Position numbers and translations under genes: made by a program. The notes below the pieces were generated by a model that was given only the letters and a program-made list of their open reading frames with translations, searched no databases and was not told where the DNA came from. DNA of 20,766 nucleotides from a virus, in the IMG/VR virus record IMGVR_UViG_3300046009_009451, positions 1 to 20,766 of that record. One strand, given 5' to 3'. Below are positions 1,007 through 19,121 of the stretch, one piece after another. Position 1 is the first letter of the stretch, and every line of letters starts with the position of its first letter.

Positions 1007-1205
1007 ACTAGATTCAGTTGTTACGTCAATTATAGAACAATTTACAAAACGCGCTCAATTTGGTAAGGCAAAGTACGGTGTTGACCTTGATCGTACCGAT
1101 TTATCATTAATCGAATGGATTGAGCATGCTAAACAAGAACATATGGATGCTATTCTGTATTTAGAAAAAATTAAACAAATAGCAAGTGCCGAAAAAATTA
1201 TCTGA
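996..1205 (+). CDS. Small dGTP-diphosphohydrolase/MazG-like phage protein
   Basis: A 69-residue protein with the signature FTKRAQFGKAKYG, LDRTDLS, EWIEHAKQEHMDA and YLEKI. It resembles the N-terminal dATP/dGTP diphosphohydrolase-type helical domain found in many phages (all-alpha, MazG-like NTP pyrophosphatase relatives). EWxxHxxxExxDA supplies acidic residues that could bind Mg2+. The known activity of relatives is hydrolysis of dNTPs to dNMP and PPi, which shapes the nucleotide pool or destroys a base pool. At this length it may be a minimal or regulatory version. It overlaps the gp62-like gene by 11 bases and the nuclease gene by about 20 bases, so translation is probably coupled. Confidence 0.6.
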   Translation: MENKLDSVVTSIIEQFTKRAQFGKAKYGVDLDRTDLSLIEWIEHAKQEHMDAILYLEKIKQIASAEKII

Positions 1206-2127: not shown

Positions 2128-2132
2128 GCGTA

Positions 2133-2141
2133 TATATTTAT
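2133..2141 (+). promoter_or_regulatory. Promoter-like TATATTTAT motif upstream of the RHH gene
   Basis: TATATTTAT followed by ATCAAAA lies in the 30-base gap between the nuclease stop and the ATG at 2158, with 16 bases between motif and ATG. The same 9-mer, or a one-base variant, recurs at similar spacing before the genes at 20010 and 20580. It may be a phage promoter element or an initiation signal. The AT-rich background makes chance occurrence a real alternative. Confidence 0.4.
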
Positions 2142-2157
2142 ATCAAAATATAATATT

Positions 2158-2358
2158 ATGGCAAAAGCAAACATGCAACTGACGAGCGTAAAAATCCCTG
2201 AGGATTTGTTTGAGCAGTTCAAAATAGCCTGTGTTAGATATAAATTTAGTGTTCAGAAATTAACAGAACGCACTATGTTCTTATATCTTACAAGCGATGA
2301 ATTCAGAAAACAAATTCACAACCAATTAGACACAACATTAACTAAAGAAACAGAGTAA
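2158..2358 (+). CDS. Small ribbon-helix-helix-like DNA-binding protein
   Basis: A 66-residue basic protein. The N-terminal LTSVKIPEDLFEQFKIAC (residues 8-25) has the beta-strand plus helix pattern of Arc/MetJ/CopG ribbon-helix-helix proteins (alternating 'xVxIPxxLxxxFK'), and a second helix covers FSVQKLTERTMFLYL. Such proteins bind operators as dimers or act as antitoxins. No toxin-like partner is next to it. It is the first gene after a promoter-like motif and sits directly upstream of the glycan cluster, 6 bases from the next ATG, so it could regulate the cluster or itself (inference). The start context is TAATATTATG. Confidence 0.6.
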   Translation: MAKANMQLTSVKIPEDLFEQFKIACVRYKFSVQKLTERTMFLYLTSDEFRKQIHNQLDTTLTKETE

Positions 2359-2364
2359 TTCGTT

Positions 2365-3828
2365 ATGGTAAAAGAAGGTTATATCCCGCAAGAGCAACGT
2401 AAAAAAATCCTATTATTATGTGACGATATTCGAATGACAAGTGGTATTTCCACTATGGCTAGAGAAATCGTTATTGGTACAGCACACCGTTTTAATTGGG
2501 TAAATATAGGTGGTGCTATTACACATCCCGACAAAGGTAAAAGATTTGATCTTAATGATGATACAAACAATAATGCAGGCATTACTGATGCAAGTGTTTA
2601 TCTTTATCCTGTTGATGGATATGGTTCTCCTGAACTAATTAGACAAATGATGGAAATTGAAAAACCAGATGCCATTATGTTCTTTACTGATCCAAGATAT
2701 TGGATTTGGTTATTTCAAACTGAACATGAGATTAGAAAACAAATACCAATGATTTATTTAAATATTTGGGATGACTTACCTTATCCAATGTATAATAAAT
2801 CATATTATGAATCATGTGATTCTTTATTTGCTATTAGTAAACAAACAGAAAACATTAATCGCTCAGTATTAGGACCAGAAGTAGCAGCTGAAAAAGTAAT
2901 TAAATATATTCCTCATGGAATTAATGAAAAATTATTCTTCCCTATCACTACTGAACAACCTGAGTATTTAGCATTACAAGACTTTAAAAAACAAATATAT
3001 GGAGAAAAAACTTACGATTTTACTTTACTATATAATGCGCGTAACATCCGTCGTAAATGTGTTCCTGATCTAATGTTAGCATGGAAGATATTTGTTGATG
3101 AGTTACCAAAAGAAAAAGCAGAAAAATGTGCTTTAATAATGCACACTCAAATAGTAGATGATAACGGAACTGATTTAAGAGCAGTAAAAGATATGATGTT
3201 TGGAAGAGATAGTCGATATAATATTATATTTGACCAAAACAAATATCCATCTAACATTATGAATTTACTTTATAATGCTACAGATGCTACTGCTTTAGTT
3301 TCATCTAACGAAGGATGGGGATTATCATTAACAGAAGCAATGATGTGTGGTAAACCAATTATAGCTACTGTAACAGGTGGAATGCAAGATCAAATGCGTT
3401 TTGAAGATGAGAATGGTGATTGGATTAAGTTTACAGAAGAATTTGGATCAAACCATAGAGGTAAATATAAAGAATGTGGCGAATGGGCATTTCCAGTATT
3501 CCCATCAAATTTAAGTATTGTTGGATCAGTTCCTACACCTTATATCTTTGATGATAGAGCAGAGCCATTTGATATAGCTAAACAAATTACAAATTTATAT
3601 AAAATAAAAACTGAAAAACCAGATTATTATAAATCTATTTGTAAATCAGCATATGAGTGGGTAACTTCAGACGAATCAATGCAATCAGCTAGATGGATGT
3701 CTAAAAACATCATTGAGGGTATTGAAGAAACATTCGCTAAGTGGGAACCTAGATATCAATTTGAATTAATTGATGTAAAACCATTAGAACAACCTAAACA
3801 CTTTGTAAAACACGTTATCGCAAAATAA
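2365..3828 (+). CDS. GT-B glycosyltransferase, GT4-like
   Basis: A 487-residue glycosyltransferase. The N-terminal part has KKILLLCDDIRMTSGISTMA (residues 13-32), the glycine-containing acceptor/donor loop seen at the start of GT4 proteins. The C-terminal Rossmann half has SSNEGWGLSLTEAMMCGKP (313-331), in which Glu316 and Glu324 form the E-x7-E motif that contacts the nucleotide sugar. IATVTGG follows at 333-339. It transfers a sugar from an NDP-sugar with retention of configuration, but the sugar and acceptor cannot be read from sequence. It is cytosolic, with no signal peptide or membrane helix seen. It is the first enzyme of the cluster, one base upstream of the next glycosyltransferase in a TAA-T-ATG junction. 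Confidence 0.88.
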   Translation: MVKEGYIPQEQRKKILLLCDDIRMTSGISTMAREIVIGTAHRFNWVNIGGAITHPDKGKRFDLNDDTNNNAGITDASVYLYPVDGYGSPELIRQMMEIEKPDAIMFFTDPRYWIWLFQTEHEIRKQIPMIYLNIWDDLPYPMYNKSYYESCDSLFAISKQTENINRSVLGPEVAAEKVIKYIPHGINEKLFFPITTEQPEYLALQDFKKQIYGEKTYDFTLLYNARNIRRKCVPDLMLAWKIFVDELPKEKAEKCALIMHTQIVDDNGTDLRAVKDMMFGRDSRYNIIFDQNKYPSNIMNLLYNATDATALVSSNEGWGLSLTEAMMCGKPIIATVTGGMQDQMRFEDENGDWIKFTEEFGSNHRGKYKECGEWAFPVFPSNLSIVGSVPTPYIFDDRAEPFDIAKQITNLYKIKTEKPDYYKSICKSAYEWVTSDESMQSARWMSKNIIEGIEETFAKWEPRYQFELIDVKPLEQPKHFVKHVIAK

Positions 3829-3829
3829 T

Positions 3830-5134
3830 ATGAAACCATTAATTTTTATAAGCTGTCCTATTGATACATTTTCTGGCTATGGTGCTAGATCAAGAGATAT
3901 TGCTTTAGCCCTTATTAAATCTGAAAAATATAATGTACAGATTACTCCTCAACGTTGGGGATCAACTCCATTTGGATTCTTACAAGCTAACAATCCTGAC
4001 CATAAACTAATAATGGATTGCATTTGGAGACAACCACAATTACCAAAACAACCAGATATTTGGATTCAAATTACAGTACCAAATGAATTTCAAACTGTAG
4101 GTAAATTTAATATTGGTATTACAGCAGGTATTGAAACTACAATATGTGCTCCACAATGGCTTGAAGGATTAAATAGAATGAATTTAAACCTAGTATCTTC
4201 AGAGCATTCTAAAAAAGTATTTCAAGAATCTAGATTTGAAAAACGTAATTCACAAACACAACAAATAGAAGGTGTTATTGAATTAACAGCACCTGTAGAA
4301 GTATTATTTGAAGGTGCTAATACTGATATCTATAAAAAATTAGATGATGTTATTGAAGGTAGTGGTGTAAATGATGTTTTAAGTAGTATTAAAGAAGAAT
4401 TTAATTACTTATTTGTAGGTCATTGGTTACAAGGTGAAATTGGACAAGACAGAAAAGATGTAGGTATGTTGATTAAAACATTCCTTGAAACATTCAGAAA
4501 TAAAAAATCAAGACCAGGTTTAATTCTTAAAACATGCTCTGGTAATTATTCTATTATGGATAGAGATGGTATATTAGATAAAATTAGAGCTATTCAAGAA
4601 TCAATAACAGGCGATTTACCAAGCATTTATTTATTGCATGGTGAATTTAGTGATGAAGAAGTAAACGAACTATACAATCACCCTAAAGTAAAGGCATCAG
4701 TGTCATTTACTAAAGGTGAAGGATATGGCCGCCCATTACTTGAAGCATCAATATCTCAAAAACCAGTTATTGCTAGTGGATGGAGTGGTCATACAGATTT
4801 CCTAGACCCAGAAATGGCAATATTATTACCAGGTGCCGTTGTACAAATACACCCTTCAGCTGTAGTGCAAGATATGTTAATAGCTGAAAGTGGATGGTTT
4901 ACTATTGATTATAGTGCTGCTGCTAAAGCGTTAGAAGATGTTTATAAGAATTATAAAAAGTGGATTGATAAATCAAAAAGACAAGCGTATCGTTCACGTA
5001 CTGAATTTAGTTTAGATAAAATGGGAGAAAAATTATTATCTATTATTGATAATAAAGTACCTATAAAGGTAGAATTAAAATTACCTCAACTAAAGAAAAT
5101 TTCATTACCTAAATTAAAGAAAAATGACGAATAA
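3830..5134 (+). CDS. Second GT-B glycosyltransferase, GT4-like
   Basis: A 434-residue protein of the same general design as its upstream neighbour. It opens with PLIFISCPIDTFSGYGARSR (3-22), a glycine-rich donor loop. Near the C-terminus is SFTKGEGYGRPLLEASISQK (292-311), with Glu297 and Glu305 forming E-x7-E, then PVIASGWSGHTDFL. The middle domain contains GHWLQGEIGQDRKDVGMLI (197-215), in the usual place of the linker to the second Rossmann fold. The last 25 residues are lysine-rich with repeated LPKLKK-like units and look like a flexible basic tail. Tandem GT4 genes suggest sequential addition of sugars or a paralogous pair. The substrate is unknown. Confidence 0.85.
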   Translation: MKPLIFISCPIDTFSGYGARSRDIALALIKSEKYNVQITPQRWGSTPFGFLQANNPDHKLIMDCIWRQPQLPKQPDIWIQITVPNEFQTVGKFNIGITAGIETTICAPQWLEGLNRMNLNLVSSEHSKKVFQESRFEKRNSQTQQIEGVIELTAPVEVLFEGANTDIYKKLDDVIEGSGVNDVLSSIKEEFNYLFVGHWLQGEIGQDRKDVGMLIKTFLETFRNKKSRPGLILKTCSGNYSIMDRDGILDKIRAIQESITGDLPSIYLLHGEFSDEEVNELYNHPKVKASVSFTKGEGYGRPLLEASISQKPVIASGWSGHTDFLDPEMAILLPGAVVQIHPSAVVQDMLIAESGWFTIDYSAAAKALEDVYKNYKKWIDKSKRQAYRSRTEFSLDKMGEKLLSIIDNKVPIKVELKLPQLKKISLPKLKKNDE

Positions 5135-5178
5135 TACTGGTGGAGTAATATTTACATTTCAAAATAATACATCAAACT

Positions 5179-5580
5179 ATGAAAGAATCATTTATAATAT
5201 GTCCTAAATGTGGTGGTGACGCTTGTAGCGAAATCACAAACGGAATAGTAACAATATGGATCTGTATGGGTTGTGGATTTACTTCCAACAACACTATTAC
5301 TGATACTAATATCACTGAAATGGAAGCCACATTACCAGAACTATATAAAGCGCTTAGATTTAAGGATAAAGATGGTAAATATTGGTATCCTAATAGCGTA
5401 ATATTAGATGATAAATCAATGGTGTTTGCTGAAGGTAATAGTGTTCAAGATTGGAAATGGTCAGCTGTACAAGCTAAAGATGGTAAGACAGATATGACTA
5501 CTAAAAAAGAATACGAAATAAATGAATTTATGGATGCCTTAGAATATATAGGTTATTTTAAATACGCTCAACAAGAATAA
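5179..5580 (+). CDS. Zinc-ribbon protein of unknown function
   Basis: A 133-residue protein with an N-terminal zinc ribbon, CPKCGG at residues 8-13 and CMGCG at 29-33 (C-x2-C, about 17 residues, C-x2-C). A globular C-terminal part with several Trp/Tyr (DGKYWYPNSVILDD, QDWKWSAVQA) follows. I do not recognise the C-terminal family. It separates two glycosyltransferase genes and is one of the few cluster genes with a sizeable leader (44 bases), which contains a weak AATATTTAC motif. It could be an imported regulatory or structural gene unrelated to sugar metabolism. Confidence 0.7.
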   Translation: MKESFIICPKCGGDACSEITNGIVTIWICMGCGFTSNNTITDTNITEMEATLPELYKALRFKDKDGKYWYPNSVILDDKSMVFAEGNSVQDWKWSAVQAKDGKTDMTTKKEYEINEFMDALEYIGYFKYAQQE

Positions 5581-5584
5581 TATT

Positions 5585-6190
5585 ATGCCTTCAATTAGTT
5601 ATGCAATCACAGCTTGTAATGAGCACGTTGAATTAGAAAGACTATTAAGTCAACTTACAGAATATATTCGTCCTGAAGACGAAATAGTAGTACAAATGGA
5701 TATTACTGCTACTGATGAAGTAAAAGATGTAGTTAACAAATATAAGTTAATGAATTACTTTCATCCATTAAATAAAGACTTTGCTACATTTAAAAATAAT
5801 CTTAAAGGTCTATGTACTAAAGACTATATCTTTCAAATTGATGCTGATGAATATCTATCAGACGATTTACTAACATGGCTTCCAGACATGTTGTTTGATA
5901 ATAATACTGTTGAAATGTTTTCAATACCACGTATTAATACAGTAGAGGGTTTAACTGAACAACATATTAAACAATGGGGTTGGAGAGTAGACGAAAAAGG
6001 TTGGGTTAATTATCCTGATTATCAAAATCGTATACTTAAAAATAAACCTGAAATATGTTGGAAAAATAAAGTACATGAAGTATTAACTGGAGCTAGAACC
6101 ATAGCATCTCTCCCTCCAGGATTTGACTTAATACATCCTAAAACAATAGACAGACAAGAAAAACAAAACAATTATTATAATACAATATGA
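5585..6190 (+). CDS. Family 2 (GT-A) glycosyltransferase
   Basis: A 201-residue GT-A enzyme. The N-terminus SYAITACNEHVELERLL matches the 'xxxxxxNExxxLxxxL' opening of GT2 proteins. FQIDADEYLSDDL (83-95) contains Asp86-Ala-Asp88, the DXD motif that binds metal and NDP-sugar. WKNKVHEVL near residues 159-167 matches the conserved 'xxxVHE' segment found in WaaE/KdtX-like and related GT2 proteins. The length is short for the family (about 250 is usual), with a truncated-looking C-terminus but an intact catalytic core. It starts four bases after the previous stop, in the same TAATATTATG context as the gene at 2158. Confidence 0.85.
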   Translation: MPSISYAITACNEHVELERLLSQLTEYIRPEDEIVVQMDITATDEVKDVVNKYKLMNYFHPLNKDFATFKNNLKGLCTKDYIFQIDADEYLSDDLLTWLPDMLFDNNTVEMFSIPRINTVEGLTEQHIKQWGWRVDEKGWVNYPDYQNRILKNKPEICWKNKVHEVLTGARTIASLPPGFDLIHPKTIDRQEKQNNYYNTI

Positions 6191-7720: not shown

Positions 7721-8743
7721 ATGAAAACAGCACTAGTATTAGGGGCAGGTGGTTTTATTGGTTCGTATTTAGTGCATCAACTAAAAGAAGAAGGATATTG
7801 GGTACGAGGAGTTGATTTAAAACACCCAGAATTTAGTAGAACATCAGCTGATGATTTTATTATTTGTGATTTACGTGATCCTAAAAACATAGAAAAAGTA
7901 ATAAGATTAGAAGCCTATATGGGTAATCCTTTACCTAGCAGAGGAGCTTCATACCCATTTTCAGATAAATTATCATTTGATGAAGTTTATCAATTAGCAG
8001 CCGACATGGGAGGAGCTAGTTACATCTTTACAGGGGAAAATGACGCTGATGTAATGTATAATTCAGCAATGATTAATCTAAATGTTTGTAATGAATCTGT
8101 TAAACAAAAAATTAAAAAAATATTTTACAGTTCATCAGCTTGCATTTATCCTGAATATAATCAATTAGACCCAGAAAATCCTAACTGCGAAGAATCATCA
8201 GCATATCCTGCTGAACCTGATTCTGAGTATGGTTGGGAAAAATTATTTAGTGAGCGTTTATATTTAGCATATAAAAAAAATTATGGGTTAGATGTTCGTA
8301 TAGCCCGTTTTCACAATATATTTGGGCCATATGGGACATTTGAAGGTGGTAAAGAAAAATCACCTGCGGCATTATGTCGTAAAATAGCTCAAGCATTAGA
8401 TGGAAGTGAAATTGAAGTATGGGGTGATGGTTTACAAACAAGATCATTCTTGTACATTGATGAATGTATTGAGGGAGTAAGACGATTAATGGAATCTGAT
8501 TTTGAAGGACCTGTTAATATAGGTAGCGAAGAAATGGTAACTATTAATGAATTAGCTGAAAACATAATTGATATTAGTGGTAAAAACATTACTATTAAAA
8601 ATATTCCTGGCCCAACAGGCGTCAGAGGGCGAAATTCAGATAATAAATTAATAGAAGAAAAATTAGATTGGGTTCCCATTCAACCATTATATGAAGGCCT
8701 AATTGAAACATACACTTGGATAGAAAAACAAATAAATAAATGA
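7721..8743 (+). CDS. GDP-mannose 3,5-epimerase (extended SDR)
   Basis: A 340-residue extended SDR with very strong resemblance to plant-type GDP-mannose 3,5-epimerase, which converts GDP-D-mannose to GDP-L-galactose (and GDP-L-gulose). Matches include the NAD motif GAGGFIG (8-14), LAADMGG (92-98), SSACIYPE (138-145), the Y170xxxK174 pair, RFHNIFGP (196-203), GGKEKSPAALCRK (209-221), WGDGLQTRSFLYIDECIEGV (234-253) and IPGPTGVRGRNSDN. Cys141, Tyr170, Lys174 and Lys213 each lie four positions below Cys145, Tyr174, Lys178 and Lys217 of the Arabidopsis enzyme, the known catalytic set. An insert of about 25 residues (roughly 63-87) separates DLR from LAADMGG. GDP-mannose would have to come from the host or from genes outside the window. 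Confidence 0.92.
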   Translation: MKTALVLGAGGFIGSYLVHQLKEEGYWVRGVDLKHPEFSRTSADDFIICDLRDPKNIEKVIRLEAYMGNPLPSRGASYPFSDKLSFDEVYQLAADMGGASYIFTGENDADVMYNSAMINLNVCNESVKQKIKKIFYSSSACIYPEYNQLDPENPNCEESSAYPAEPDSEYGWEKLFSERLYLAYKKNYGLDVRIARFHNIFGPYGTFEGGKEKSPAALCRKIAQALDGSEIEVWGDGLQTRSFLYIDECIEGVRRLMESDFEGPVNIGSEEMVTINELAENIIDISGKNITIKNIPGPTGVRGRNSDNKLIEEKLDWVPIQPLYEGLIETYTWIEKQINK

Positions 8744-9144
8744 AAGAAAGAAAGTACCTCCCTACATTAAGTGAATTAATCGATAGATTAAGTATTACAC
8801 AGTTAAAAGAAGTGTTCATCACAGAGCACAAAGCAGAATATGCAGCCGAAATAGCTGATATCGTACATGATATTCAATTACATCTTAACGAGAGTAAAGA
8901 ACCAATTACAGCAGAAACAATTAGAGCAATTGTAGTATTATCACAAATGAATTTACACATCTGGCATAACGAATCAAATGTGAGAAGTGGTAAGTCTGGA
9001 ACAAATGCATTAGCATTAACTCATGGTTTAAACGGTATTCGTAATACCGCTAAAAACCAAATTCAAGAGATAATGGGTGGGCGTAAAGACTATAAAATTG
9101 ACTGCTTAGCAGCTGACTTTAAAGATTGGGAAATATCATGGTAA
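8740..9144 (+). CDS. Uncharacterised helical protein with an IDRLSITQLKE motif
   Basis: A 134-residue helical protein of unknown function. It begins with a short basic tail, then TLSELIDRLSITQLKE (9-24), a long helix, and SQMNLHIWHNE (68-78). The IDRLxxxxxKE unit is shared with the 205-residue protein at 6234-6851. The two may belong to one loose family linked to glycan clusters, but the rest is too different to judge by eye. It overlaps the epimerase upstream by four bases (ATGA) and the next epimerase by seven. Its start and stop are thus locked into the sugar-nucleotide operon. Confidence 0.65.
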   Translation: MKERKYLPTLSELIDRLSITQLKEVFITEHKAEYAAEIADIVHDIQLHLNESKEPITAETIRAIVVLSQMNLHIWHNESNVRSGKSGTNALALTHGLNGIRNTAKNQIQEIMGGRKDYKIDCLAADFKDWEISW

Positions 9145-10160: not shown

Positions 10161-11078
10161 ATGAAAATAAAAATATCATATCATATAATGCCTTGGGAAA
10201 TTGATTATGCTTTTTTATCATTCACCCAATTAAAAAAAACTTCATTTTATTTATCCAAAGATGTAGAAATAAAAATAGATGTTGCTTTAAATTGTTCTAA
10301 TTATCTTATAGATTGGGATAATACTAAAATACCTAAACAATTTTTTATAGATAAATTTAATAATTTATTAGTTTTACTTAAAGATTATACTGTTAATCCT
10401 ATAATATATCAGGGTGATGAAAATTATGGGTTTTTTGATGTACAAAAAATAGCATATGAAAAAGATATAGATTATTATATAGGGTTATGTCCTGATATAT
10501 ATTTTAGCGAACATACTATTCCATTACTTATAGAAGCCGCTCAACAAACAGATAATAAATACTTTGTAATTACCCCAGAAATATATAAAATGTGGGATCA
10601 TACATGGGATGAAATCACAAATCAAAAATTTATTAATGTTCCATACAATGAATGGAATGAAGGCGATATATTTAAAATTAGATATGAAGTAAAAAATAAT
10701 CTAAATGAAGCTTTTTTAGAGGAAACAAAATTAAGTAAATGGGCATGGTGGTGTGATATATACAGTAAAGAGTTTTATGAAACAATTGCTCCTATCCCTG
10801 AAGAATGGATTGGTTATGGTGGGTGGGATTTTTATTCTATGATTATAAGTGAATATATAAAATCTAAAGGAGTTGATTTTAAACAATATGTTTTAAGAGG
10901 ACAAACTATATTTGAATACCCTATAGGTCCTTTAAAAGCAAGAGGATTTACTGGTTATTATAAAGATTATTTTACAATTAAAACTGATGCTCCAAACCAA
11001 AGAAAAATTTTTGAAGAAAATCTCCCTTTATTTTTAAAACAACAAATTAAAACATTACATAATAAAAAAATAATTTAA
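10161..11078 (+). CDS. Probable GT-A-like glycosyltransferase, family not assigned
   Basis: A 305-residue protein. YYIGLCPDIYFSEHTIPLLI (105-124) has the hydrophobic strand, acidic residue and following helix typical of the DXD region of GT-A enzymes, though with C-P-D in place of D-x-D. EWIGYGGWDFYSM (215-227) resembles the 'GxGGxDxD' C-terminal segment of galactosyltransferase-like GT2/GT7 proteins. Several Trp-rich stretches (KWAWWCDIYSKEF) lie between. The assignment rests on these two segments and on the surrounding glycosyltransferase genes. It is AT-rich like the GT17 and GT10 genes. The stop and the next ATG overlap by one base. Confidence 0.6.
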   Translation: MKIKISYHIMPWEIDYAFLSFTQLKKTSFYLSKDVEIKIDVALNCSNYLIDWDNTKIPKQFFIDKFNNLLVLLKDYTVNPIIYQGDENYGFFDVQKIAYEKDIDYYIGLCPDIYFSEHTIPLLIEAAQQTDNKYFVITPEIYKMWDHTWDEITNQKFINVPYNEWNEGDIFKIRYEVKNNLNEAFLEETKLSKWAWWCDIYSKEFYETIAPIPEEWIGYGGWDFYSMIISEYIKSKGVDFKQYVLRGQTIFEYPIGPLKARGFTGYYKDYFTIKTDAPNQRKIFEENLPLFLKQQIKTLHNKKII

Positions 11079-11968
11079 TGCATATATTTGCTAATTTTAG
11101 AAATCCTATAAGTGATCCTTATTTGCTTTATATAAAAGAAAAATTTGGTAATAAACCAATTACTTTTTGGTATGATAAGTTTCCTGAATCTCAAGATCAA
11201 TTAAATATAAATCCTTATAATTTTTTGTTTATACATGAACCTAATGAATTTTTTGGGTATGCAACACCTGCTATAAAATTTCAAGATTTATACACTGCTA
11301 TACTATCCTGGGATCAAAATATTTTAGATAATTGCCAAAATGGAGTTAAATTTACCTATAATGGTGCTACTTTAGACCCTGATTATATAGAGCAAATAAA
11401 AGATAAAGAAAAGCAATTTCAAATTAGCTTTCTATGTGGTAATAAAAACATGGTTGAAGGGCATATATTAAGACATAAAGTTTATGGATTAGATAATAAA
11501 ATAATTATTCCTAAAAAATGGTATTATGTTTTAGAAGACTTTGATACAGAGAATGGAGTTAGACCTGGCTATGACAACTACAATAAAGATTTATCACATA
11601 TCCCTTCAGGAATAGATGTGATTGGATATGGTCGTAGGGTTTTATTTGATGACAGTATGTTTAATGTTGTTATAGAAAATGTAAATAGTTTAAATTGGTA
11701 TAATAAAATAGGAGATGCTTTTTTAAGCAAAACTCTTCCCGTATATTGGGGTTGTTCAAACATAAGTGAATTTGGTTATGATGAACGAGGTATTATTAGA
11801 TTTAATAATGAAAAGGAATTATTAGATATTATAAATAATTTAACTCCTGATTTATATAATAAAATGAAACCTTATATTGATTATAACTATGAAGTAGCTA
11901 AATTAGATTTTTTTGAAGATAGAATAAGTGAATTCTTTAATGAATTTATTAAATTGAATAATATATGA
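11078..11968 (+). CDS. GT10-family (alpha-1,3-fucosyltransferase-like) glycosyltransferase
   Basis: A 296-residue protein whose C-terminal half carries the GT10 signature: MFNVVIENVNSLNWYNK (194-210), then IGDAFLSKTLPVYWG (211-225). This matches the 'FxxxxEN...xEKxxxAxxxGxxPVYWG' motif that binds the GDP part of GDP-fucose. The N-terminal half is divergent, as usual in the family. Known members transfer L-fucose from GDP-L-fucose. Because a GDP-L-galactose-forming enzyme is encoded in the same cluster and L-galactose is 6-hydroxy-L-fucose, GDP-L-galactose is a possible donor (inference). The TGA stop overlaps the next ATG. Confidence 0.83.
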   Translation: MHIFANFRNPISDPYLLYIKEKFGNKPITFWYDKFPESQDQLNINPYNFLFIHEPNEFFGYATPAIKFQDLYTAILSWDQNILDNCQNGVKFTYNGATLDPDYIEQIKDKEKQFQISFLCGNKNMVEGHILRHKVYGLDNKIIIPKKWYYVLEDFDTENGVRPGYDNYNKDLSHIPSGIDVIGYGRRVLFDDSMFNVVIENVNSLNWYNKIGDAFLSKTLPVYWGCSNISEFGYDERGIIRFNNEKELLDIINNLTPDLYNKMKPYIDYNYEVAKLDFFEDRISEFFNEFIKLNNI

Positions 11969-12447
11969 TATTTCCAGAAGTAAAAATATATACACCAGAC
12001 GTTTACACTGATTTTAGAGGTGACTTATGGACATTATGGAATAAAGATAAATTCGAACCTAAATTAGATTTTAATCACGATAAAATATCTACATCAAGAA
12101 AACACGTATTAAGAGGCATCCATGGCGACGATAAATCATGGAAACTAATTACATGTTTATATGGTGAAATGTACTTTGTAGTAGTAGATAATAGACCTGA
12201 TTCTCCAAACTATTTAAAATGGGATTGGCTAATACTAGATGATAAAACTAAAAAATCAGTATTAGTACCTCCTATGTTCGGAAATGGATTCTTAGTACTA
12301 AGTAACCATTCAGTATTCCATTATAAATGGGCTTACGAAGGAGAATATGCTGATGTAGGTCAACAATTTACATTGAAATGGAACGCGCCACAAATAGGTA
12401 TTGATTGGCCTATTGATAACCCAATATTACAAAAACGAGACAAATAA
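11965..12447 (+). CDS. RmlC-like sugar-nucleotide 3,5-epimerase (cupin)
   Basis: A 160-residue cupin with the RmlC pattern: DFRGDLWTLW (16-25), STSRKHVLRGIHGDD (42-56) with the likely catalytic His53, the GEMYFVVVDNRPDSPNYLKW strand region, VPPMFGNGFLVLS (101-113) and YKWAYEGEY (120-128). RmlC-type enzymes invert C3 and/or C5 of 4-keto-6-deoxy sugars. The usual 'PxGFAHGF' is changed to 'PPMFGNGF' here. No RmlA, RmlB or RmlD partner is recognisable, so dTDP-rhamnose synthesis is unlikely. A GDP-linked 4-keto substrate from the 17372 enzyme is possible, as in the RmlC-like epimerases of GDP-heptose modification pathways. Confidence 0.8.
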   Translation: MIFPEVKIYTPDVYTDFRGDLWTLWNKDKFEPKLDFNHDKISTSRKHVLRGIHGDDKSWKLITCLYGEMYFVVVDNRPDSPNYLKWDWLILDDKTKKSVLVPPMFGNGFLVLSNHSVFHYKWAYEGEYADVGQQFTLKWNAPQIGIDWPIDNPILQKRDK

Positions 12448-12448
12448 T

Positions 12449-13045
12449 ATGAGAAAAAGCTACACAGTACAAGAGTTAATTGACTTTGAAACTAGAGTAA
12501 AGGAAGCATATGAAGTTGGACAAATTAAAGGTCCTGTTCATTTATCTAGAAACAATGAGCTAAAGTTAATTGAATTATTTCAACAAATAAGTGAGAATGA
12601 TTGGGTATTTTCTGCTTGGAGAAACCATTATCATGCTTTACTTCATGGGGTTGATCCTGAATATCTGTTTAAGACAATTAGTGAAGGTAAAAGTATGGGT
12701 ACTAACAACATTGAACCTAACTTCTATGCTTCATCAATTGTAGGTGGTATTATTCCTATTGCTTTAGGAGTAGCACAAGCACTTAAATTAAAAAATTCAC
12801 CAAATAAAGTATGGTGCTTTATAGGTGATATGACAATGGAAACAGGAGGTTTTTGGGAGGCTTATAAATACTCTCGTAACTTCAATTTACCACTTCAATT
12901 TATAGTTGAAGATAATAATTTGAGTGTTCACACACCAACAACAACTGCTTGGAATAAAAGAATGAAAGTACCTGAAGGGGTAATTTATTATGATTATGAA
13001 ATGCATTATCCACATCATGGAACTGGTAATTGGGTTAACTTTTAA
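12449..13045 (+). CDS. TPP-dependent enzyme, PP-domain subunit (E1-alpha-like)
   Basis: A 198-residue protein equal to the pyrophosphate-binding half of E1-alpha/transketolase-type thiamine-diphosphate enzymes. Visible parts are SAWRNHYHALLHGVD (55-69), ASSIVGGIIPIALGVAQALK (94-113) and CFIGDMTMETGGFWEA (123-138) with Gly126-Asp127, then FIVEDNN with Asn156/157. Gly-Asp and the downstream Asn are the Mg-diphosphate ligands of the family. The frame extends upstream to a TTG at 12401, but ATG 12449 in a TAA-T-ATG junction with the RmlC-like gene is the better start. It needs the next gene's product for the other half of the active site. Confidence 0.85.
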   Translation: MRKSYTVQELIDFETRVKEAYEVGQIKGPVHLSRNNELKLIELFQQISENDWVFSAWRNHYHALLHGVDPEYLFKTISEGKSMGTNNIEPNFYASSIVGGIIPIALGVAQALKLKNSPNKVWCFIGDMTMETGGFWEAYKYSRNFNLPLQFIVEDNNLSVHTPTTTAWNKRMKVPEGVIYYDYEMHYPHHGTGNWVNF

Positions 13046-13054
13046 AATTAATAT

Positions 13055-13591
13055 ATGAAATATAGAGACGAATTAATTAGAGCAATGGAATGGTTAGGTG
13101 AAAAACCTAATACTGTATTTACAGGACAAGCAATCGCCCTTAGTGGCCATGCAATTTCAGGAACAATGGCAAAGGTTCCAAGTGAAAAACGTATTGAACT
13201 TCCTGTACTTGAAGAAACACAACTAGGAATGGCAACAGGTTTAGCATTAGAAGGATTTGTTCCTATTACATGTTATCCTCGTTTTGATTTCTTTATTTTA
13301 TCAATGAATCAATTAGTAAATCATTTAGATAAAATAAGAGAAATGACTGAAAATAAAATGCAACCTAAAGTAATTATTAGAGTTGCTGTTGGATCTAAAA
13401 AACCATTTTCAGCAGGCCCTCAACACACTCAAGATCATACTGAGGCTATGAAATTAATGTTAACTGACATTGACATAATTACATTAAATGAACCAGAAGA
13501 TATATTTCCTGCTTTTGAAAAAGCATATGAACGCACAGATGGAAAATCAACTTTAATAATCGAATACGCAGACTACTATGGAACAAAATAA
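13055..13591 (+). CDS. TPP-dependent enzyme, Pyr-domain subunit (E1-beta-like)
   Basis: A 178-residue protein equal to the aminopyrimidine-binding half of E1-beta/transketolase. It contains LPVLEETQLGMATGLALEG (49-67), with Glu53 aligned to the glutamate that activates thiamine diphosphate, then ITCYPRFDFFILSMNQLVNH. Classical E1-beta is about 325 residues and transketolase has a third C-terminal domain. This protein ends after the Pyr domain, so the pair is a minimal PP + Pyr enzyme, like sulfopyruvate decarboxylase in layout. It lies 9 bases after the PP gene in the same frame, separated by two in-frame TAA codons. Likely chemistry is decarboxylation or two-carbon transfer to a keto sugar (inference). 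Confidence 0.83.
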   Translation: MKYRDELIRAMEWLGEKPNTVFTGQAIALSGHAISGTMAKVPSEKRIELPVLEETQLGMATGLALEGFVPITCYPRFDFFILSMNQLVNHLDKIREMTENKMQPKVIIRVAVGSKKPFSAGPQHTQDHTEAMKLMLTDIDIITLNEPEDIFPAFEKAYERTDGKSTLIIEYADYYGTK

Positions 13592-14768
13592 ATTTAGTTG
13601 GCCGTTAATTAACGACAATATTACTCAAAAGGATAGATCAGTATTAGCTGATTTCTGTTTAAACGGAGAACGCTTTACTAATGGAGCTAAAGTAAAAGAA
13701 TTTGAAAAACAATGGTCTGAATGGCTTGGAGTTAAACATTCAGTAATGGTTAATTCAGGTGCATCTGCTAATTTTATTTCTATTGCAATGGTAAAAGAAT
13801 TATTAGGTGTGGGTGAAGTAATTGTTCCTCCAATTGGATGGGTTTCAGATATTTCATCTGTAGTACAATTAGGAATGACACCTGTATTTGTAGATGTTGA
13901 TATTAACAATTTTAATATTACTGCTGAAAACATTAAAGCAGCTATTACTAAAGATACTAAAGCAATTGTATTAGTTCATACATTAGGATTTAATGCTATG
14001 ACTGATGAAATTATTCAAATAGCAAAAGATAATGATATTATATTAATTGAAGACTGCTGTGAGGCACATGGTGCTAAATTTGGAGATAAAAGAGTAGGAT
14101 CAATTGGTGATATTAGTTTATTCTCATTCTACTTTGGACACCACATTACAACTATTGAAGGTGGTATTGTATGTGTTAATAATGATAAATTATATGACTT
14201 AGCTAAATTATTCCGTTCACACGGTATGACTAGAGAAGCATCACTTGAATTACAAACAGAATACCAACAAAACCATCCAGACTTAAATCCATTATTTACA
14301 TTCGCCGTAGCTGGATTTAACATGAGGTCAACTGAGCTTAATGCTGTATTAGGATTAGAACAACTGCAACGTTTAGATTATAATATTGAGCGTCGTAGAG
14401 ATAATCTTGATATTTGGTTAAAACATCTTGATCCATCTAAATTTAAAACATCATTTAATGTAGAAGGTAATAGTAACTTTGCTTTACCATTGGTAATGCA
14501 AGAAAGTTATAGAAATTCTTTAAAAATTAATGATGATTATAGCAGTGTATGCGATGTTTTAGATTTAAACGGTGTTGAATATAGATTAGGAACAGCAGGT
14601 GGTGGTAATCAAGCTAGACAACCATACCTTAAAAACTACCCATATAGAATAAGTGGAGAATTGAAAAATGCTGATTATATTCACGATAATGCACTTTATA
14701 TAGGTAATCATACTGATTTAACTAAAGAGCAAATTATTAACTTATGTAAAAACTTAAATAATGTTTAA
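13578..14768 (+). CDS. ColD/E1-like PLP-dependent sugar 3-dehydratase (DegT fold)
   Basis: A 396-residue DegT/DnrJ/EryC1-fold protein. VNSGASANFISI (58-69) binds the PLP phosphate and IEDCCEAHGA (157-166) supplies the aspartate for the pyridine nitrogen. The position normally held by the Schiff-base lysine reads FSFYFGHHITTIEGG (182-196), with His188-His189 where aminotransferases such as ArnB have K-N. A Lys-to-His change here is the hallmark of sugar 3-dehydratases: ColD (GDP-4-keto-6-deoxy-mannose 3-dehydratase, His188) and E1 of CDP-ascarylose synthesis. The product would be a 4-keto-3,6-dideoxy sugar nucleotide. It overlaps the TPP Pyr-subunit gene by 14 bases and the next SDR gene by 8, so the set is co-translated. 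Confidence 0.85.
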   Translation: MEQNKFSWPLINDNITQKDRSVLADFCLNGERFTNGAKVKEFEKQWSEWLGVKHSVMVNSGASANFISIAMVKELLGVGEVIVPPIGWVSDISSVVQLGMTPVFVDVDINNFNITAENIKAAITKDTKAIVLVHTLGFNAMTDEIIQIAKDNDIILIEDCCEAHGAKFGDKRVGSIGDISLFSFYFGHHITTIEGGIVCVNNDKLYDLAKLFRSHGMTREASLELQTEYQQNHPDLNPLFTFAVAGFNMRSTELNAVLGLEQLQRLDYNIERRRDNLDIWLKHLDPSKFKTSFNVEGNSNFALPLVMQESYRNSLKINDDYSSVCDVLDLNGVEYRLGTAGGGNQARQPYLKNYPYRISGELKNADYIHDNALYIGNHTDLTKEQIINLCKNLNNV

Positions 14769-15732
14769 AGATCAAAATGTATTAGTAACAGGTGGTGGTG
14801 GGATGATTGGCCGCTCATTAGTTAGATTATTATTAGAACGTGGGGCAAAAATTACAATTGCTGATTTAACTGAACCTTCTGATTTGCCTGAAGGAGTAAA
14901 TTGTATAAAAGTTGATCTTAGATATTTCAACCAATGTGAAGAAATTTGTCAAGGCAGAGATTATATCTTTAATCTTGTAGGTATTAAAGGTTCACCTAAA
15001 ATGTGTGCTGAACAACCAGTTGACTTTATGGTTCCAATGTTGCAATTTAATACCAACATGATGGAAGCAGCTCATAGAGCAAAAGTTAAATGGTACTTAT
15101 ATACTAGCTCAGTTGGCGTTTATGCTCCAGCAGATGTATTTTATGAAGATACAGTTTGGAGTACAATGCCGTCTCCAAATGATAGATTTGCAGGTTGGGC
15201 TAAACGTATTGGTGAATTACAAGCTGAAGCTTATGGCATACAATATGGTACAAAAAATATATCAATTGTAAGACCTGCTAATGTGTTTGGTGCTTATGAC
15301 AATTTCAACCCAGCAAACGCAATGGTTGTTCCTTCATTAATTAGAAAGGCACAAGAAAATGATGTATTAGAAGTATGGGGTGATGGTTCAACAATTAGAG
15401 ACTTCATTCATGCTGATGACGTTGCTTTAGGTATGATATATGCTGTTGAAAAACAGATAACTGAGCCGATTAACCTAGGATCAGGTAAGGGGTACTCAAT
15501 TAAGGAAGTCGTTGATATGGTCGTTAAACATTCAGGTAAACAACTTGAAGTAAAATGGTTAACAGATAAACCAGCAGGCGATAAAATCCGTTTATTTGAT
15601 ATGGCTAGAGCTAAATCTTATGGATTTGATATCTCAGTATCATTAGAAGAAGGAATTAAAAGTACTACTGATTGGTTCCTAAACAATAAAGAAATATTAG
15701 ATAAAAGATATAACGCGTTTGTAAATCACTAG
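14761..15732 (+). CDS. Extended SDR lacking the YxxxK tyrosine
   Basis: A 323-residue NAD-dependent epimerase/dehydratase relative. It has TGGGGMIG (10-17) for NAD binding, DLRYFNQC, YTSSVGVYAP (114-123), IVRPANVFGAYDNF and WGDGSTIRDFIHADDV. The usual catalytic Y-x-x-x-K reads FAGWAK at 143-148: Lys148 is present but Ala144 replaces the Tyr, with Phe143 next to it. The NFNPANAMVVPSLI segment resembles the GDP-fucose-synthase side of the family. It follows the ColD-like gene with an 8-base overlap and probably acts on the same intermediate. Whether it is a reductase, an epimerase or altered in activity cannot be told. Confidence 0.78.
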   Translation: MFKDQNVLVTGGGGMIGRSLVRLLLERGAKITIADLTEPSDLPEGVNCIKVDLRYFNQCEEICQGRDYIFNLVGIKGSPKMCAEQPVDFMVPMLQFNTNMMEAAHRAKVKWYLYTSSVGVYAPADVFYEDTVWSTMPSPNDRFAGWAKRIGELQAEAYGIQYGTKNISIVRPANVFGAYDNFNPANAMVVPSLIRKAQENDVLEVWGDGSTIRDFIHADDVALGMIYAVEKQITEPINLGSGKGYSIKEVVDMVVKHSGKQLEVKWLTDKPAGDKIRLFDMARAKSYGFDISVSLEEGIKSTTDWFLNNKEILDKRYNAFVNH

Positions 15733-15734
15733 TT

Positions 15735-16439
15735 ATGGCAAAATATTTGGTTACGGGAATTAAAAGTGGCTTAGGTAAATATCTTTACGAAAATTTACCT
15801 GATGCTCATGGGTTAGATAGAGGTGGATTTAATTTCATTAAAGATGAAGATTACGATACTATTATTCATTGTGCCTTCAATAAAGCACAATCATCAGTAG
15901 ACATAGGAGATTATTACAGTTATCTAGAAGATAATATATTATTAACTCAAGATTTATTAAAGTTAAAATATAGAAAATTCATCTACATTTCAACAATTGA
16001 TGTTTATCCTACTACATTAAGTACTTATGGCTTATTTAAAAGATTCGCTGAATCTATAGTTAAACAAAAACCAGGTACTATCATCTTAAGATGTTCAATG
16101 ATGTTAGGAGATAATACTAAACCAAATCATATTACCAAACTAAAAGATGGTATTGATCGTCTTACATTAAGTGGTGAATCTAAATTTAATTATATTTTAA
16201 ACAGTGATATTCTTAAATTTGTAGAATCATATTCATTAAGATGCCCTGAAGGAATTATAGACTTCGTATCTAATGAATCAGCTAAATTGAGTGACGTAGC
16301 AGCGATAATATCTCCATCTACGGAATTATTAAGTTATACCTATGACGCTGATCACAAATGGGTTAATCCAATATACGACACATACGAAGAATTTAACAAA
16401 TCATCAATAGACAATTTAAACCAATACTTAAATGGCTAA
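15735..16439 (+). CDS. Short SDR-type sugar-nucleotide reductase/epimerase
   Basis: A 234-residue SDR, well below the 310-340 usual for extended members. Its NAD motif TGIKSGLGK (7-15) follows GxxxGxG, the classical SDR pattern, rather than the GxxGxxG of its neighbours. YISTIDVYPT (84-93) and STYGLFKRFAE (96-106) give catalytic Tyr98 and Lys102. The C-terminal substrate domain is reduced. It may be a reductase completing a 4-keto sugar (inference). It sits two bases after the previous stop and overlaps the next gene by eight. Confidence 0.72.
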   Translation: MAKYLVTGIKSGLGKYLYENLPDAHGLDRGGFNFIKDEDYDTIIHCAFNKAQSSVDIGDYYSYLEDNILLTQDLLKLKYRKFIYISTIDVYPTTLSTYGLFKRFAESIVKQKPGTIILRCSMMLGDNTKPNHITKLKDGIDRLTLSGESKFNYILNSDILKFVESYSLRCPEGIIDFVSNESAKLSDVAAIISPSTELLSYTYDADHKWVNPIYDTYEEFNKSSIDNLNQYLNG

Positions 16440-17379
16440 TTTATTAATCTGTGGAGCAACAGGATTCATAGGTAGAAATCTACTAGAATACTTCCACAAA
16501 CAAGGAGAACACAAAATCAGAGCAGTTCATTACAACAGACCTGCTTTAACACAATATGAAGGAGTAGAATGGGTAAATGTAGACCTAAGAAATCCGGAAA
16601 GTGTAAAAAATGTACTTAACGGAATCGATATTGTACTTCAGTTCGCTGCTACAACATCAGGTGCTAAAGACATCGTTACACGTCCATTCATCCACGTTAC
16701 TGATAACGCGGTAATGAACAGCTTAATACTTAGAGAATGCTACGAACAAAGCATTAAACACTTCGTATTCCCAAGCTGTACAGTAATGTATCAACCATCT
16801 CAAGTAGCATTAGATGAAACTGACTTTGATGCTAATGAACCTCTTCTACCAGTATACTTTGGAGTAGGTAATACTAAGTTGTATATTGAGAAAATGTGTG
16901 AATTCTTCTCCCGCTTAGGTAGAACTAAACACACAGCAATTAGACACTCTAACATGTATGGTCCTTACGACAAATATGATTTAGAACGTTCTCATATGTT
17001 TGGTGCTACAATCACTAAAGTAATGACTTCAACAGATGGAAAAATTAATGTTTGGGGAACAGGGGAGGAAGCAAGAGATTTATTATATGTAGAGGATTTA
17101 GTTAAATTTGTAGATGCTGCTATTACTAAACAAACAACACCATATGAATTATTTACAGTTGGTGTTGGTAAAGCAGTTAAAGTAAAAGAAGTAATTGAAA
17201 AGATTATCAAATATTCAGAACGTGAATTAGAAATGGTTCATGATTTAACTAAACCTACAATACCAACTTCACTATTTTTAAATTGTAATAAAGCAAAAGA
17301 AGTGTTAGGTTGGGAACCTGAAGTAGATTTAGATAATGGAATTATTAAAACAATAAATTGGTATAAAGAAAATGTATAA
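16432..17379 (+). CDS. GDP-fucose-synthase-like SDR with altered catalytic motif
   Basis: A 315-residue extended SDR with GATGFIG (8-14), FPSCTVMYQP (113-122), NMYGPYDKYDLERSHMFGAT and WGTGEEARDLLYVEDLV. The last two resemble 'NLYGPxDNFDxxxSHVxPA' and 'WGTGxxxREFLxxDDLA' of GDP-L-fucose synthase (4-keto-6-deoxymannose 3,5-epimerase/4-reductase). Ser115 and Cys116 match its S-x-C active-site region. The YxxxK tyrosine is missing: the segment reads VYFGVGNTK (141-149), with Val145 four residues before Lys149. The first part of the gene is richer in G+C than the last part, hinting at a recombination joint. It overlaps both neighbours by eight bases. Confidence 0.72.
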   Translation: MANLLICGATGFIGRNLLEYFHKQGEHKIRAVHYNRPALTQYEGVEWVNVDLRNPESVKNVLNGIDIVLQFAATTSGAKDIVTRPFIHVTDNAVMNSLILRECYEQSIKHFVFPSCTVMYQPSQVALDETDFDANEPLLPVYFGVGNTKLYIEKMCEFFSRLGRTKHTAIRHSNMYGPYDKYDLERSHMFGATITKVMTSTDGKINVWGTGEEARDLLYVEDLVKFVDAAITKQTTPYELFTVGVGKAVKVKEVIEKIIKYSERELEMVHDLTKPTIPTSLFLNCNKAKEVLGWEPEVDLDNGIIKTINWYKENV

Positions 17380-18382
17380 CGTATTAATTACAGGAATTAC
17401 AGGAATGGTCGGCTCACATTTAGCCGACTATCTATTAGAAAACACAGATTGGAAAATATATGGTTTAGCTCGTTGGAATGACTCCCTAGAAAACATTGAG
17501 CATCTATCAGCTGAAATCAATAGTAAAGAGCGTATTGAATTAGTATATGGTGATTTAAATGATTTAGCATCATTATTAGCTGCTGTAGATAAATCAAAAC
17601 CAGGTTATGTATTTCATTTAGCAGCACAATCATATCCACAAACGTCATTTGATTCACCTATTGAAACACTTCAAACTAATATTTTAGGAACTACTAACTT
17701 ATTAGAGGCTCTAAGACGTTCAAAATATAAAGAAGCAGTAATTCACGTTTGTGCTTCAAGTGAAGTATTTGGACGTGTACCTAAAGAAAAATTACCAATT
17801 AACGAGGAATGTTCATTCCATCCAGCTTCACCTTATGCAATATCTAAGGTTGGAACTGATTTAGTTGGTCGTTATTATGCTGAGGCATACGGTATGAAAA
17901 TTATGACTACTCGTATGTTTACTCATACTGGTCCTAGACGTGGTGATGTATTTTCAGAATCAACATTTGCTAAACAAATTGCAATGATTGAAGGTGGATT
18001 ACAAGAGCCAAAAATATATGTTGGTAATTTAGAATCATTAAGAACATATGCTGATGTTAGAGATGCTGTTAAAGCGTATTATATGCTAGTAACAATTAAT
18101 CCAATTGGAGGTGAGTATTATAACATTGGTGGTACTTATACTTGTAAAATAGCAGATATGCTTAATTATTTAATTAGCAAATCAACAGTACCTAATATTG
18201 AGATTGTAACTGATCCTGAACGTTTAAGACCAATAGATGCTGATCTACAAGTACCAGATATTACTAAATTCAAAGCTCATACAGGTTGGGCTCCTGAAAC
18301 CCCATTTGAAAAAACAATGGATGATTTATTAGAATATTGGAGAGCCAAAGTAAAATCAGGCCGTAAATTTTTAAAACGATAA
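17372..18382 (+). CDS. GDP-mannose 4,6-dehydratase-like SDR
   Basis: A 336-residue extended SDR. It has TGITGMVGSHLADYLLE (7-23), YGDLNDLASLL (59-69), FHLAAQSYPQTSFDSP (81-96), CASSEVFG (127-134), SPYAISK (153-159, Tyr155 and Lys159) and THTGPRRGDVF. In GDP-mannose 4,6-dehydratase the catalytic set is Thr, Glu, Tyr, Lys. Here Ser129 replaces Thr while Glu131, Tyr155 and Lys159 remain, which favours a dehydratase over a 4-reductase. The ending (DPERLRPIDADLQVP, TGWAPETPFEKTMDDLLEYW) is shared with RMD-type reductases, so that is the alternative. It could feed GDP-4-keto-6-deoxy-mannose, or the heptose equivalent, to the ColD-like, RmlC-like and reductase genes upstream. Confidence 0.75.
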   Translation: MYNVLITGITGMVGSHLADYLLENTDWKIYGLARWNDSLENIEHLSAEINSKERIELVYGDLNDLASLLAAVDKSKPGYVFHLAAQSYPQTSFDSPIETLQTNILGTTNLLEALRRSKYKEAVIHVCASSEVFGRVPKEKLPINEECSFHPASPYAISKVGTDLVGRYYAEAYGMKIMTTRMFTHTGPRRGDVFSESTFAKQIAMIEGGLQEPKIYVGNLESLRTYADVRDAVKAYYMLVTINPIGGEYYNIGGTYTCKIADMLNYLISKSTVPNIEIVTDPERLRPIDADLQVPDITKFKAHTGWAPETPFEKTMDDLLEYWRAKVKSGRKFLKR

Positions 18383-18383
18383 T

Positions 18384-19121
18384 ATGAAGATATTAGTTAT
18401 AGGAGATAGCTGTACCGATATATTTCGTTATGGTAAAGTAGAAAGACTAGCACCCGAAGCACCAGTACCAGTAATTATACCTGAAAAGGAAACATCATCT
18501 CCAGGAATGGCTGGTAATGTAGTTAGAAATCTTGAGGCGTTAGGTGCTGAAGTTGACTTTATTACTAATAGAGTAGAAATTAAAAAAATAAGATACGTTT
18601 GTTCTAAGTATAATCATTTACTTTTAAGAGTAGATGAAAATGACAAATGCGAACCAATATTAGAAACAACTATTGGTGATATAAATTGGAGTGAATATGA
18701 TGCCGTTGTAATAAGTGATTATTGTAAAGGATTCGTTCATGAATTAGATATCGAATACATTTCAAAACAACACCCATTAGTATTCTTAGACACTAAGAAA
18801 ATATTAGGTAAATATGCTCATGATGTTAATTGTATTAAGATCAATTATAATGAATGGCAAAATAATCTAAGCGTAATGGTAGCAGATAAAGTTATAGAAG
18901 ATAAAGTTATCGTTACTAGAGGTAAATACGGATGTAATTTTAGAGGAGTAAATTATCCAACACAAGAAGTACCTGTAAAAGATATTTCTGGAGCAGGAGA
19001 TACATTCTTAGCTGGGTTAGTAGTAGAATATATTAAAACAAAAGACTACGAAAAGGCAATTGCATTCGCTCAAGAATGTACAACAATAGTAGTTCAAAAA
19101 TCAGGAGTATCAACAATATAA
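18384..19121 (+). CDS. Short PfkB-family sugar kinase, HldA/HldE-like
   Basis: A 245-residue PfkB-fold kinase resembling the heptose-7-phosphate kinase domain of HldE/RfaE. VIGDSCTDIFRYGKVERLAP (5-24), EAPVPV (25-30), PGMAGNVVRNLEALGAEV (40-57) and DISGAGDTFLAG (200-211) are visible, with catalytic Asp206. Usual HldA kinases are about 310-330 residues. The segment between ALGAEV and KIRYV, which normally holds the rest of the lid and sugar-binding region, is shortened by roughly 35-40 residues. No nucleotidyltransferase domain follows. If active it would phosphorylate C1 of a sugar phosphate. It is joined to both neighbours by TAA-T-ATG junctions. Confidence 0.8.
   Translation: MKILVIGDSCTDIFRYGKVERLAPEAPVPVIIPEKETSSPGMAGNVVRNLEALGAEVDFITNRVEIKKIRYVCSKYNHLLLRVDENDKCEPILETTIGDINWSEYDAVVISDYCKGFVHELDIEYISKQHPLVFLDTKKILGKYAHDVNCIKINYNEWQNNLSVMVADKVIEDKVIVTRGKYGCNFRGVNYPTQEVPVKDISGAGDTFLAGLVVEYIKTKDYEKAIAFAQECTTIVVQKSGVSTI

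Follow-up and report, generated by a model that had tools for sequence, protein, structure and literature searches.

The 20,766-base virus record IMGVR_UViG_3300046009_009451 of IMG/VR (positions 1 to 20,766, hereafter the window) carries a run of sugar-nucleotide genes on its + strand, each named here by its first base. A preliminary description of this DNA had proposed a route from GDP-mannose to a branched-chain sugar through a GDP-mannose 4,6-dehydratase (GMD)-like enzyme, a ColD-like 3-dehydratase, and a two-subunit thiamine diphosphate (ThDP) enzyme. The open reading frames (ORFs) that it named, at 11965-12447, 12449-13045, 13055-13591, 13578-14768, and 17372-18382, are all present on that strand. 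The region also holds the RmlC-like gene 11965 and three short-chain dehydrogenase/reductase (SDR) genes (14761, 15735, and 16432), and 18384 follows directly. From 11078 to 19121, adjacent genes are spaced between a 14-base overlap and a 9-base gap, so the ten tightly packed genes (those of 11965-19121 together with the neighbor 11078) likely form one operon. Library matches to a clamp-loader subunit, a PD-(D/E)XK exonuclease, and a ClpP-like head protease identify the contig as phage, a point that the preliminary description overlooked along with the heptose-type character of the 11965 epimerase and the heptose-kinase-like product of 18384. As set out below, the operon very probably converts GDP-heptose, not GDP-mannose, to a deoxy sugar with a small carbon branch.

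Sugar-Forming Enzymes and the ThDP Pair

The enzyme encoded at 17372..18382 (+) belongs to the GDP_Man_Dehyd superfamily (1e-75), and "GMD-like" describes it at that level only. Its nearest characterized relative in the PDB is the Campylobacter jejuni GDP-D-glycero-D-manno-heptose 4,6-dehydratase 7us5 (365 bits, 52.7% identity), followed by a GDP-4-keto-6-deoxyhexose reductase (RMD) at 195 bits and the best GMD at 145.5 bits. In the curated gmd model (TIGR01472) it scores 176.7 bits and misses the cut-off of 415 by 238 bits; by contrast, a phage GMD from another contig (locus L235) scores 546.5 bits. The S/T-E-Y-K residues are kept, with S130, E131, Y155, and K159 present in 105 of 105 homologues, which together with the 7us5 match places 17372 with the GDP-heptose 4,6-dehydratase type. 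The gene at 11965..12447 (+) encodes an RmlC-fold epimerase, for which we propose C5 or C3/C5 epimerization of a 4-keto heptose. Its top eight PDB matches are all C. jejuni heptose-pathway epimerases (160-166 bits; 49.7% identity to 8db5), the best true RmlC reaches 85 bits, and the His/Tyr dyad (H53 and Y120) is found in 132 of 132 homologues, as expected of a GDP-heptose 3/5-epimerase. Because 17372 and 11965 give the same answer independently, the sugar of the window operon is most likely a heptose, judging from these sequence relationships.

The product of 13578..14768 (+), a DegT family protein (3e-78), was correctly recognized as ColD-like in the preliminary description. ColD is its best PDB match at 194 bits, ahead of a CDP-type 3-dehydrase at 168 bits (a modest margin), and its H188 aligns with H188 of ColD, where aminotransferases have the Lys that binds pyridoxal phosphate (PLP). 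This His is present in 98 of 98 homologues; by that criterion, 13578 is a PLP-dependent C3-dehydratase. Assignment as a DegT aminotransferase was ruled out because the catalytic Lys is replaced in every homologue.

Between the epimerase and ColD-type genes lie two short genes whose products resemble pyruvate dehydrogenase E1-alpha and E1-beta in sequence, each spanning about half of its relative; we refer to them as the minimal pair. A shortened E1-alpha of 198 aa, consisting of the diphosphate-binding domain (E1_dh PF00676, 1e-13), is encoded at 12449..13045 (+), and a shortened E1-beta of 178 aa with the pyrimidine-binding domain only (Transket_pyr PF02779, 2e-7) at 13055..13591 (+). A PF02780 (transketolase_C) match was not obtained for 13055, in which the beta C-terminal domain is missing. 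All 134 alpha homologues retain the diphosphate-site residues G126, D127, and N156, and all 121 beta homologues retain E53, the activating Glu. The predicted model of 12449 (pLDDT 91) has pyruvate dehydrogenase E1-alpha as its nearest fold, and that of 13055 (pLDDT 90) matches E1-beta with TM scores of 0.84-0.86 while covering about half of the target. A role as the E1 of a pyruvate dehydrogenase complex was rejected, as there is no lipoyl E2 or E3 among the window ORFs searched. A plasmid search with 12449 returned ordinary E1 relatives only, at about 30% identity, and the sole match in a viral structure library was weak, to a protein of Campylobacter phage CP21 named as a transketolase. We note that alpha and beta are fused in one chain in the cyanophages S-SM2 (L002 14989-16197) and P-TIM68 (L003 15064-16209), where the fused chain adjoins a zinc alcohol dehydrogenase, a heptose kinase, and a phosphoheptose isomerase, and ColD is absent.

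The ThDP Slot in Related Loci

The gene order of the operon is shared with about 20 other IMG/VR contigs. Since it recurs and the slot held by the minimal pair is refilled elsewhere by other ThDP enzymes, we rejected a chance neighborhood. A ColD scan seeded with an alignment retained 80 loci from at least 590 relatives, of which 70 are distinct and 50 have intact flanks (seeding with the window protein alone gave only 2 loci, the patterns not being conserved). A ThDP enzyme is encoded in 49 of the 50 distinct intact phage loci, which are a sample of nearest relatives without phylogenetic independence, and a GDP-heptose ketone-forming enzyme is present in all 49 of these. Such strong comparative-genomic coupling upholds the earlier idea that a ColD-type 3-deoxy-4-keto sugar nucleotide feeds a two-subunit ThDP enzyme. 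The exception is L235, where the true GMD described above stands with a GDP-fucose-synthase-like gene and no ThDP enzyme, an ordinary colitose set. A scan with the ThDP alpha subunit gave a complementary picture: 61 of 69 distinct loci carry a 17372 homologue or a second ketone-forming enzyme in its place, and a GMD is found in none of the 69. That second enzyme shares 54.8% identity with 6vo6, which we take to be Cj1427. Cj1427 is a GDP-heptose 4-dehydrogenase (PMC10680097).

These data bear directly on the substrate. If a GMD and ColD instead supplied GDP-4-keto-3,6-dideoxymannose, the ThDP pair would branch a hexose, and both the superfamily of 17372 and the use of GDP-4-keto-6-deoxymannose by ColD in Escherichia coli would fit. 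However, 17372 falls below the gmd cut-off and is closest to 7us5, 11965 has its nearest relatives among heptose-type epimerases, GMD is absent from all 69 distinct ThDP-alpha loci, and the sole intact phage GMD-ColD set without a heptose enzyme, L235, is also without a ThDP enzyme. On these grounds we rejected the GDP-mannose route of the preliminary description, which we now regard as very improbable.

Cellular genomes carry the pair too. In a SAR11 locus (L085), it adjoins an HddA-like kinase and a 17372 homologue (62% identical); in Verrucomicrobia (L097-L099) and Acidimicrobiales (L092), an HddA-like kinase, the pair, and ColD stand in a row. The presence of these heptose kinases next to the pair in bacteria further favors a heptose as the sugar. 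The SAR11 cluster (L085 3323-12616) is a surface-sugar cluster beside groEL that combines a split transketolase with the minimal pair and has no ColD. In the verrucomicrobial L098 and the acidimicrobial L092, the heptose kinase, pair, and ColD have flagellin or FlgK-like neighbors (identified by eye), a setting suggestive of flagellin glycosylation.

A scan with 17372 revealed otherwise equal operons that hold a different 3.3-kb block between RmlC and ColD, encoding a DJ-1-like protein, a cupin, a HAD-like protein, and a full-length E1-alpha/E1-beta pair. We had considered that the ThDP step is dispensable in loci without the minimal pair; this was dropped because most of them hold the full-length pair. 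The full-length E1-beta (L107 6014-6940) seems to have Asp at the expected activating Glu in 27 of 27 sequences aligned by eye. In all, four kinds of ThDP enzyme occupy the slot: the minimal pair, the full-length E1 pair, a split transketolase (L219, L226, and L243), and an acetolactate-synthase-like enzyme of the YerE superfamily beside PanB (L155 and L222). PanB, which passes its curated cut-off in L155, stands with an acetolactate-synthase-like enzyme in several phage sugar clusters (L155 1512-4375, L222 7216-9995, L204, and L207). The product of PanB is a 4-hydroxy-2-oxo acid. ErwE, a sugar-branching enzyme, prefers 4-hydroxy-2-oxo acids as donor (PMC12247030), so PanB could be the maker of the 2-oxo acid donor, which would explain its position. 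Branching of keto sugars has been established or proposed for three ThDP classes: YerE-like decarboxylases, E1-like enzymes of two subunits, and transketolases encoded by split genes (PMC12247030). All three are found in this one phage slot, the E1-like class in two forms. The simplest reading that covers all of these enzymes is that they perform carboligation at the C4 ketone of a GDP-heptose.

The transketolases in the slot also raise the possibility that the pair is a small transketolase-like enzyme whose substrates are free sugar phosphates. It might then provide, for instance, sedoheptulose-7-phosphate, the starting point of heptose synthesis, and leave the sugar nucleotide untouched. Split transketolases are indeed the only ThDP enzyme in 2 of the 49 ColD loci (L226 and L243). 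Yet the sequence and fold of both minimal-pair subunits point to pyruvate and branched-chain E1 rather than transketolase as closest relatives, an acetolactate-synthase-like enzyme can take the same place, L085 and L238 encode a split transketolase in addition to the minimal pair, and the type of the SDR 14761 changes along with the kind of ThDP enzyme (see below). We consider a sugar-phosphate role unlikely, with a small share of the probability.

The SDR Genes and the Proposed Pathway

The three SDR genes differ in their active-site motifs and in their distribution. The extended SDR at 14761..15732 (+) has no YxxxK tyrosine; across its family (93 sequences), the position is taken by F, Y, or H and is separated from the Lys by one residue more than in YxxxK. 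A small SDR with intact YxxxK is encoded at 15735..16439 (+), Y and K being present in 30 of 30 homologues, and a second extended SDR at 16432..17379 (+) has a displaced Tyr (YxxVGxxK), three residues further from the Lys than in YxxxK across about 42 homologues. The small SDR has a homologue in 22 of 45 minimal-ThDP loci versus 1 of 18 full-length-ThDP loci and is a candidate reductase of the branch ketone. To follow the switching, the ThDP form (minimal or full-length pair) was scored on quick-search trees of 63 distinct loci and the window. It changes 14 times on the 17372 tree and 11 times on the ColD tree versus 2 times on the 14761 tree; for a single clade of full-length-pair loci, these trees give p 0.07. 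Among loci whose 17372 is at least 84% identical to that of the window, 14761 is 82-89% identical in the 13 with the minimal pair versus 61-64% in the 11 with the full-length pair, and ColD and 18384 show no identity split by ThDP kind. This co-switching ties 14761 to the ThDP enzyme, as expected if 14761 acts on the ThDP product.

The nearest relative of 14761 is GDP-fucose synthase, and the C. jejuni route is finished by C4 reductases (PMC10440746), which together could mean that 14761 or 16432 reduces the C4 ketone and that the pair makes an acyl or acyloin group attached elsewhere by another enzyme, giving an acylated, unbranched 3,6-dideoxyheptose. No acyltransferase was recognized among the operon proteins, however, and the usual YxxxK tyrosine position is absent in both 14761 and 16432; such a product appears quite unlikely to us.

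From the gene identities, active-site residues, operon, co-occurrence, and co-switching, we infer the following reactions, in this order, leading to a C4-branched sugar. The GDP-heptose 4,6-dehydratase type enzyme 17372 would form the ketone, 13578 would remove the C3 hydroxyl with PLP and glutamate, and 11965 would epimerize next to the ketone. The 12449/13055 pair would then decarboxylate a 2-oxo acid, most likely pyruvate by analogy, and add the two-carbon unit to the C4 ketone to give 4-C-acetyl-3,6-dideoxyheptose, whose branch would be reduced or trimmed by 15735 and/or 14761 before phage glycosyltransferases consume the sugar. The predicted product is most likely a GDP-3,6-dideoxyheptose that bears a carbon branch on C4; that the operon as a whole is a phage-borne system for a branched higher-carbon deoxy sugar nucleotide, proceeding through the 4-C-acetyl compound, is in our judgment probable.

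Several observations weigh against this branching pathway. Many minimal-pair loci are without ColD, which implies that ColD is not always needed and that the acceptor need not be 3-deoxy everywhere, and L132, outside the 50-locus set, has DdahA (a 17372 homologue) and ColD with no ThDP enzyme. The 13578 product is only distantly related to characterized ColD. Because the C-terminal part present in known branching enzymes of the E1-like type is missing from the minimal pair, its sequence does not disclose the donor or the acceptor. The heptose-7-phosphate-kinase-like (PfkB) protein at 18384..19121 (+; rfaE_dom_I 1e-38), whose only PDB match is HldA 4e84, is similar to the ADP-heptose enzyme HldE instead of HddA, the kinase on the GDP pathway, where its role is uncertain; GmhA, HddA, and HddC were not found in the 20.7-kb contig. 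The host, or the unsequenced remainder of the phage genome, may provide this supply. The 18384 product is a short form, about 245 aa in all close relatives, with a middle stretch of the usual 315-aa fold absent.

Further genes of the contig were also considered. The uncharacterized protein at 11078..11968 (+) ends four bases into 11965 and is conserved at the equivalent place in related loci; a Pfam search gave no match, and by position only it is a glycosyltransferase-like candidate. At 8740-9144, a 134-aa protein with no Pfam or PHROG match recurs at 67-96% identity in roughly half of the phage loci with ThDP genes, a conservation above that of most neighboring enzymes. The 1186-6190 block (an exonuclease, two glycosyltransferases, a small protein, and a family-2 glycosyltransferase) has a syntenic counterpart in Flavobacterium phage immuto, with 36-58% identity, and obvious Shine-Dalgarno sequences are missing at the window start codons, so the host is likely a member of the Bacteroidota.

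More broadly, we give about an even chance to the notion that aquatic phages maintain a modular line for branched sugars of nine or more carbons built on GDP-heptose, in which four exchangeable ThDP carboligases would add different branches, with 14761 exchanged alongside, to vary a phage-made surface or virion glycan. Alteration of the host O-chain has been proposed for glycosyltransferases of SAR11 myophages (PMC7029224). If true, the pathway would join GDP-3,6-dideoxyheptose synthesis and ThDP keto-sugar branching in phages, predict unreported sugars, and provide a natural set of carboligases that accept a complex ketone, one of them a two-subunit enzyme of very small size. It would also be a case of phage glycan diversification in which the branch made should follow the ThDP enzyme in the slot.

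Comparison with Known Systems

Each reaction type has been described before; in the papers searched, no account of ThDP enzymes branching GDP-heptose in phages was found. The E. coli O55 colitose pathway (GMD, ColD, and ColC) shares with the window a ColD-type dehydratase with the active-site His, but it uses a true GMD, makes a hexose, and has no ThDP enzyme; the intact set of phage L235 is similar to it. YerE and ErwE, of yersiniose and erwiniose synthesis (PMC12247030), likewise branch a 4-keto-3,6-dideoxy sugar at C4 and have superfamily relatives in L155 and L222. They are single-chain proteins of the acetolactate-synthase family that act on a CDP-hexose, unlike the window pair with its two short E1-like subunits.

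The preliminary description took a two-subunit ThDP enzyme in sugar branching to be new, which is too strong: for the E1-like AviB1/B2, EvdU5/S3, KbDH-alpha/beta, and aldgamycin enzymes, attachment of C2 branches to keto sugars is established or has been proposed (PMC12247030, PMC4753412, PMC10338323). As in these actinobacterial alpha-KADH2 enzymes, the window has separate E1-alpha/E1-beta-like subunits, with their ThDP residues, beside sugar-nucleotide genes, and a keto sugar is the proposed acceptor. Set against their published descriptions, the window differs in its much shorter subunits, in the proposed GDP-heptose substrate, and in its phage origin. The pair may work like an alpha-KADH2 enzyme, yet it is not full length and we do not file it as a member.

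The system closest to the first part of the proposed pathway is that of C. jejuni HS:5/HS:11. Ghosh et al. demonstrated the synthesis of its GDP-3,6-dideoxyheptoses by four enzymes, namely a GDP-heptose 4,6-dehydratase, a PLP C3-dehydratase, an RmlC-like C5-epimerase, and a C4 reductase (PMC10440746). The window has the same combination of dehydratase, PLP C3-dehydratase, and RmlC-like epimerase, and the first and third enzymes are related in the two systems. The C. jejuni route ends with the C4 reductase and has no ThDP enzyme, whereas the window, in a phage, places a ThDP enzyme between the epimerase and C3-dehydratase genes.

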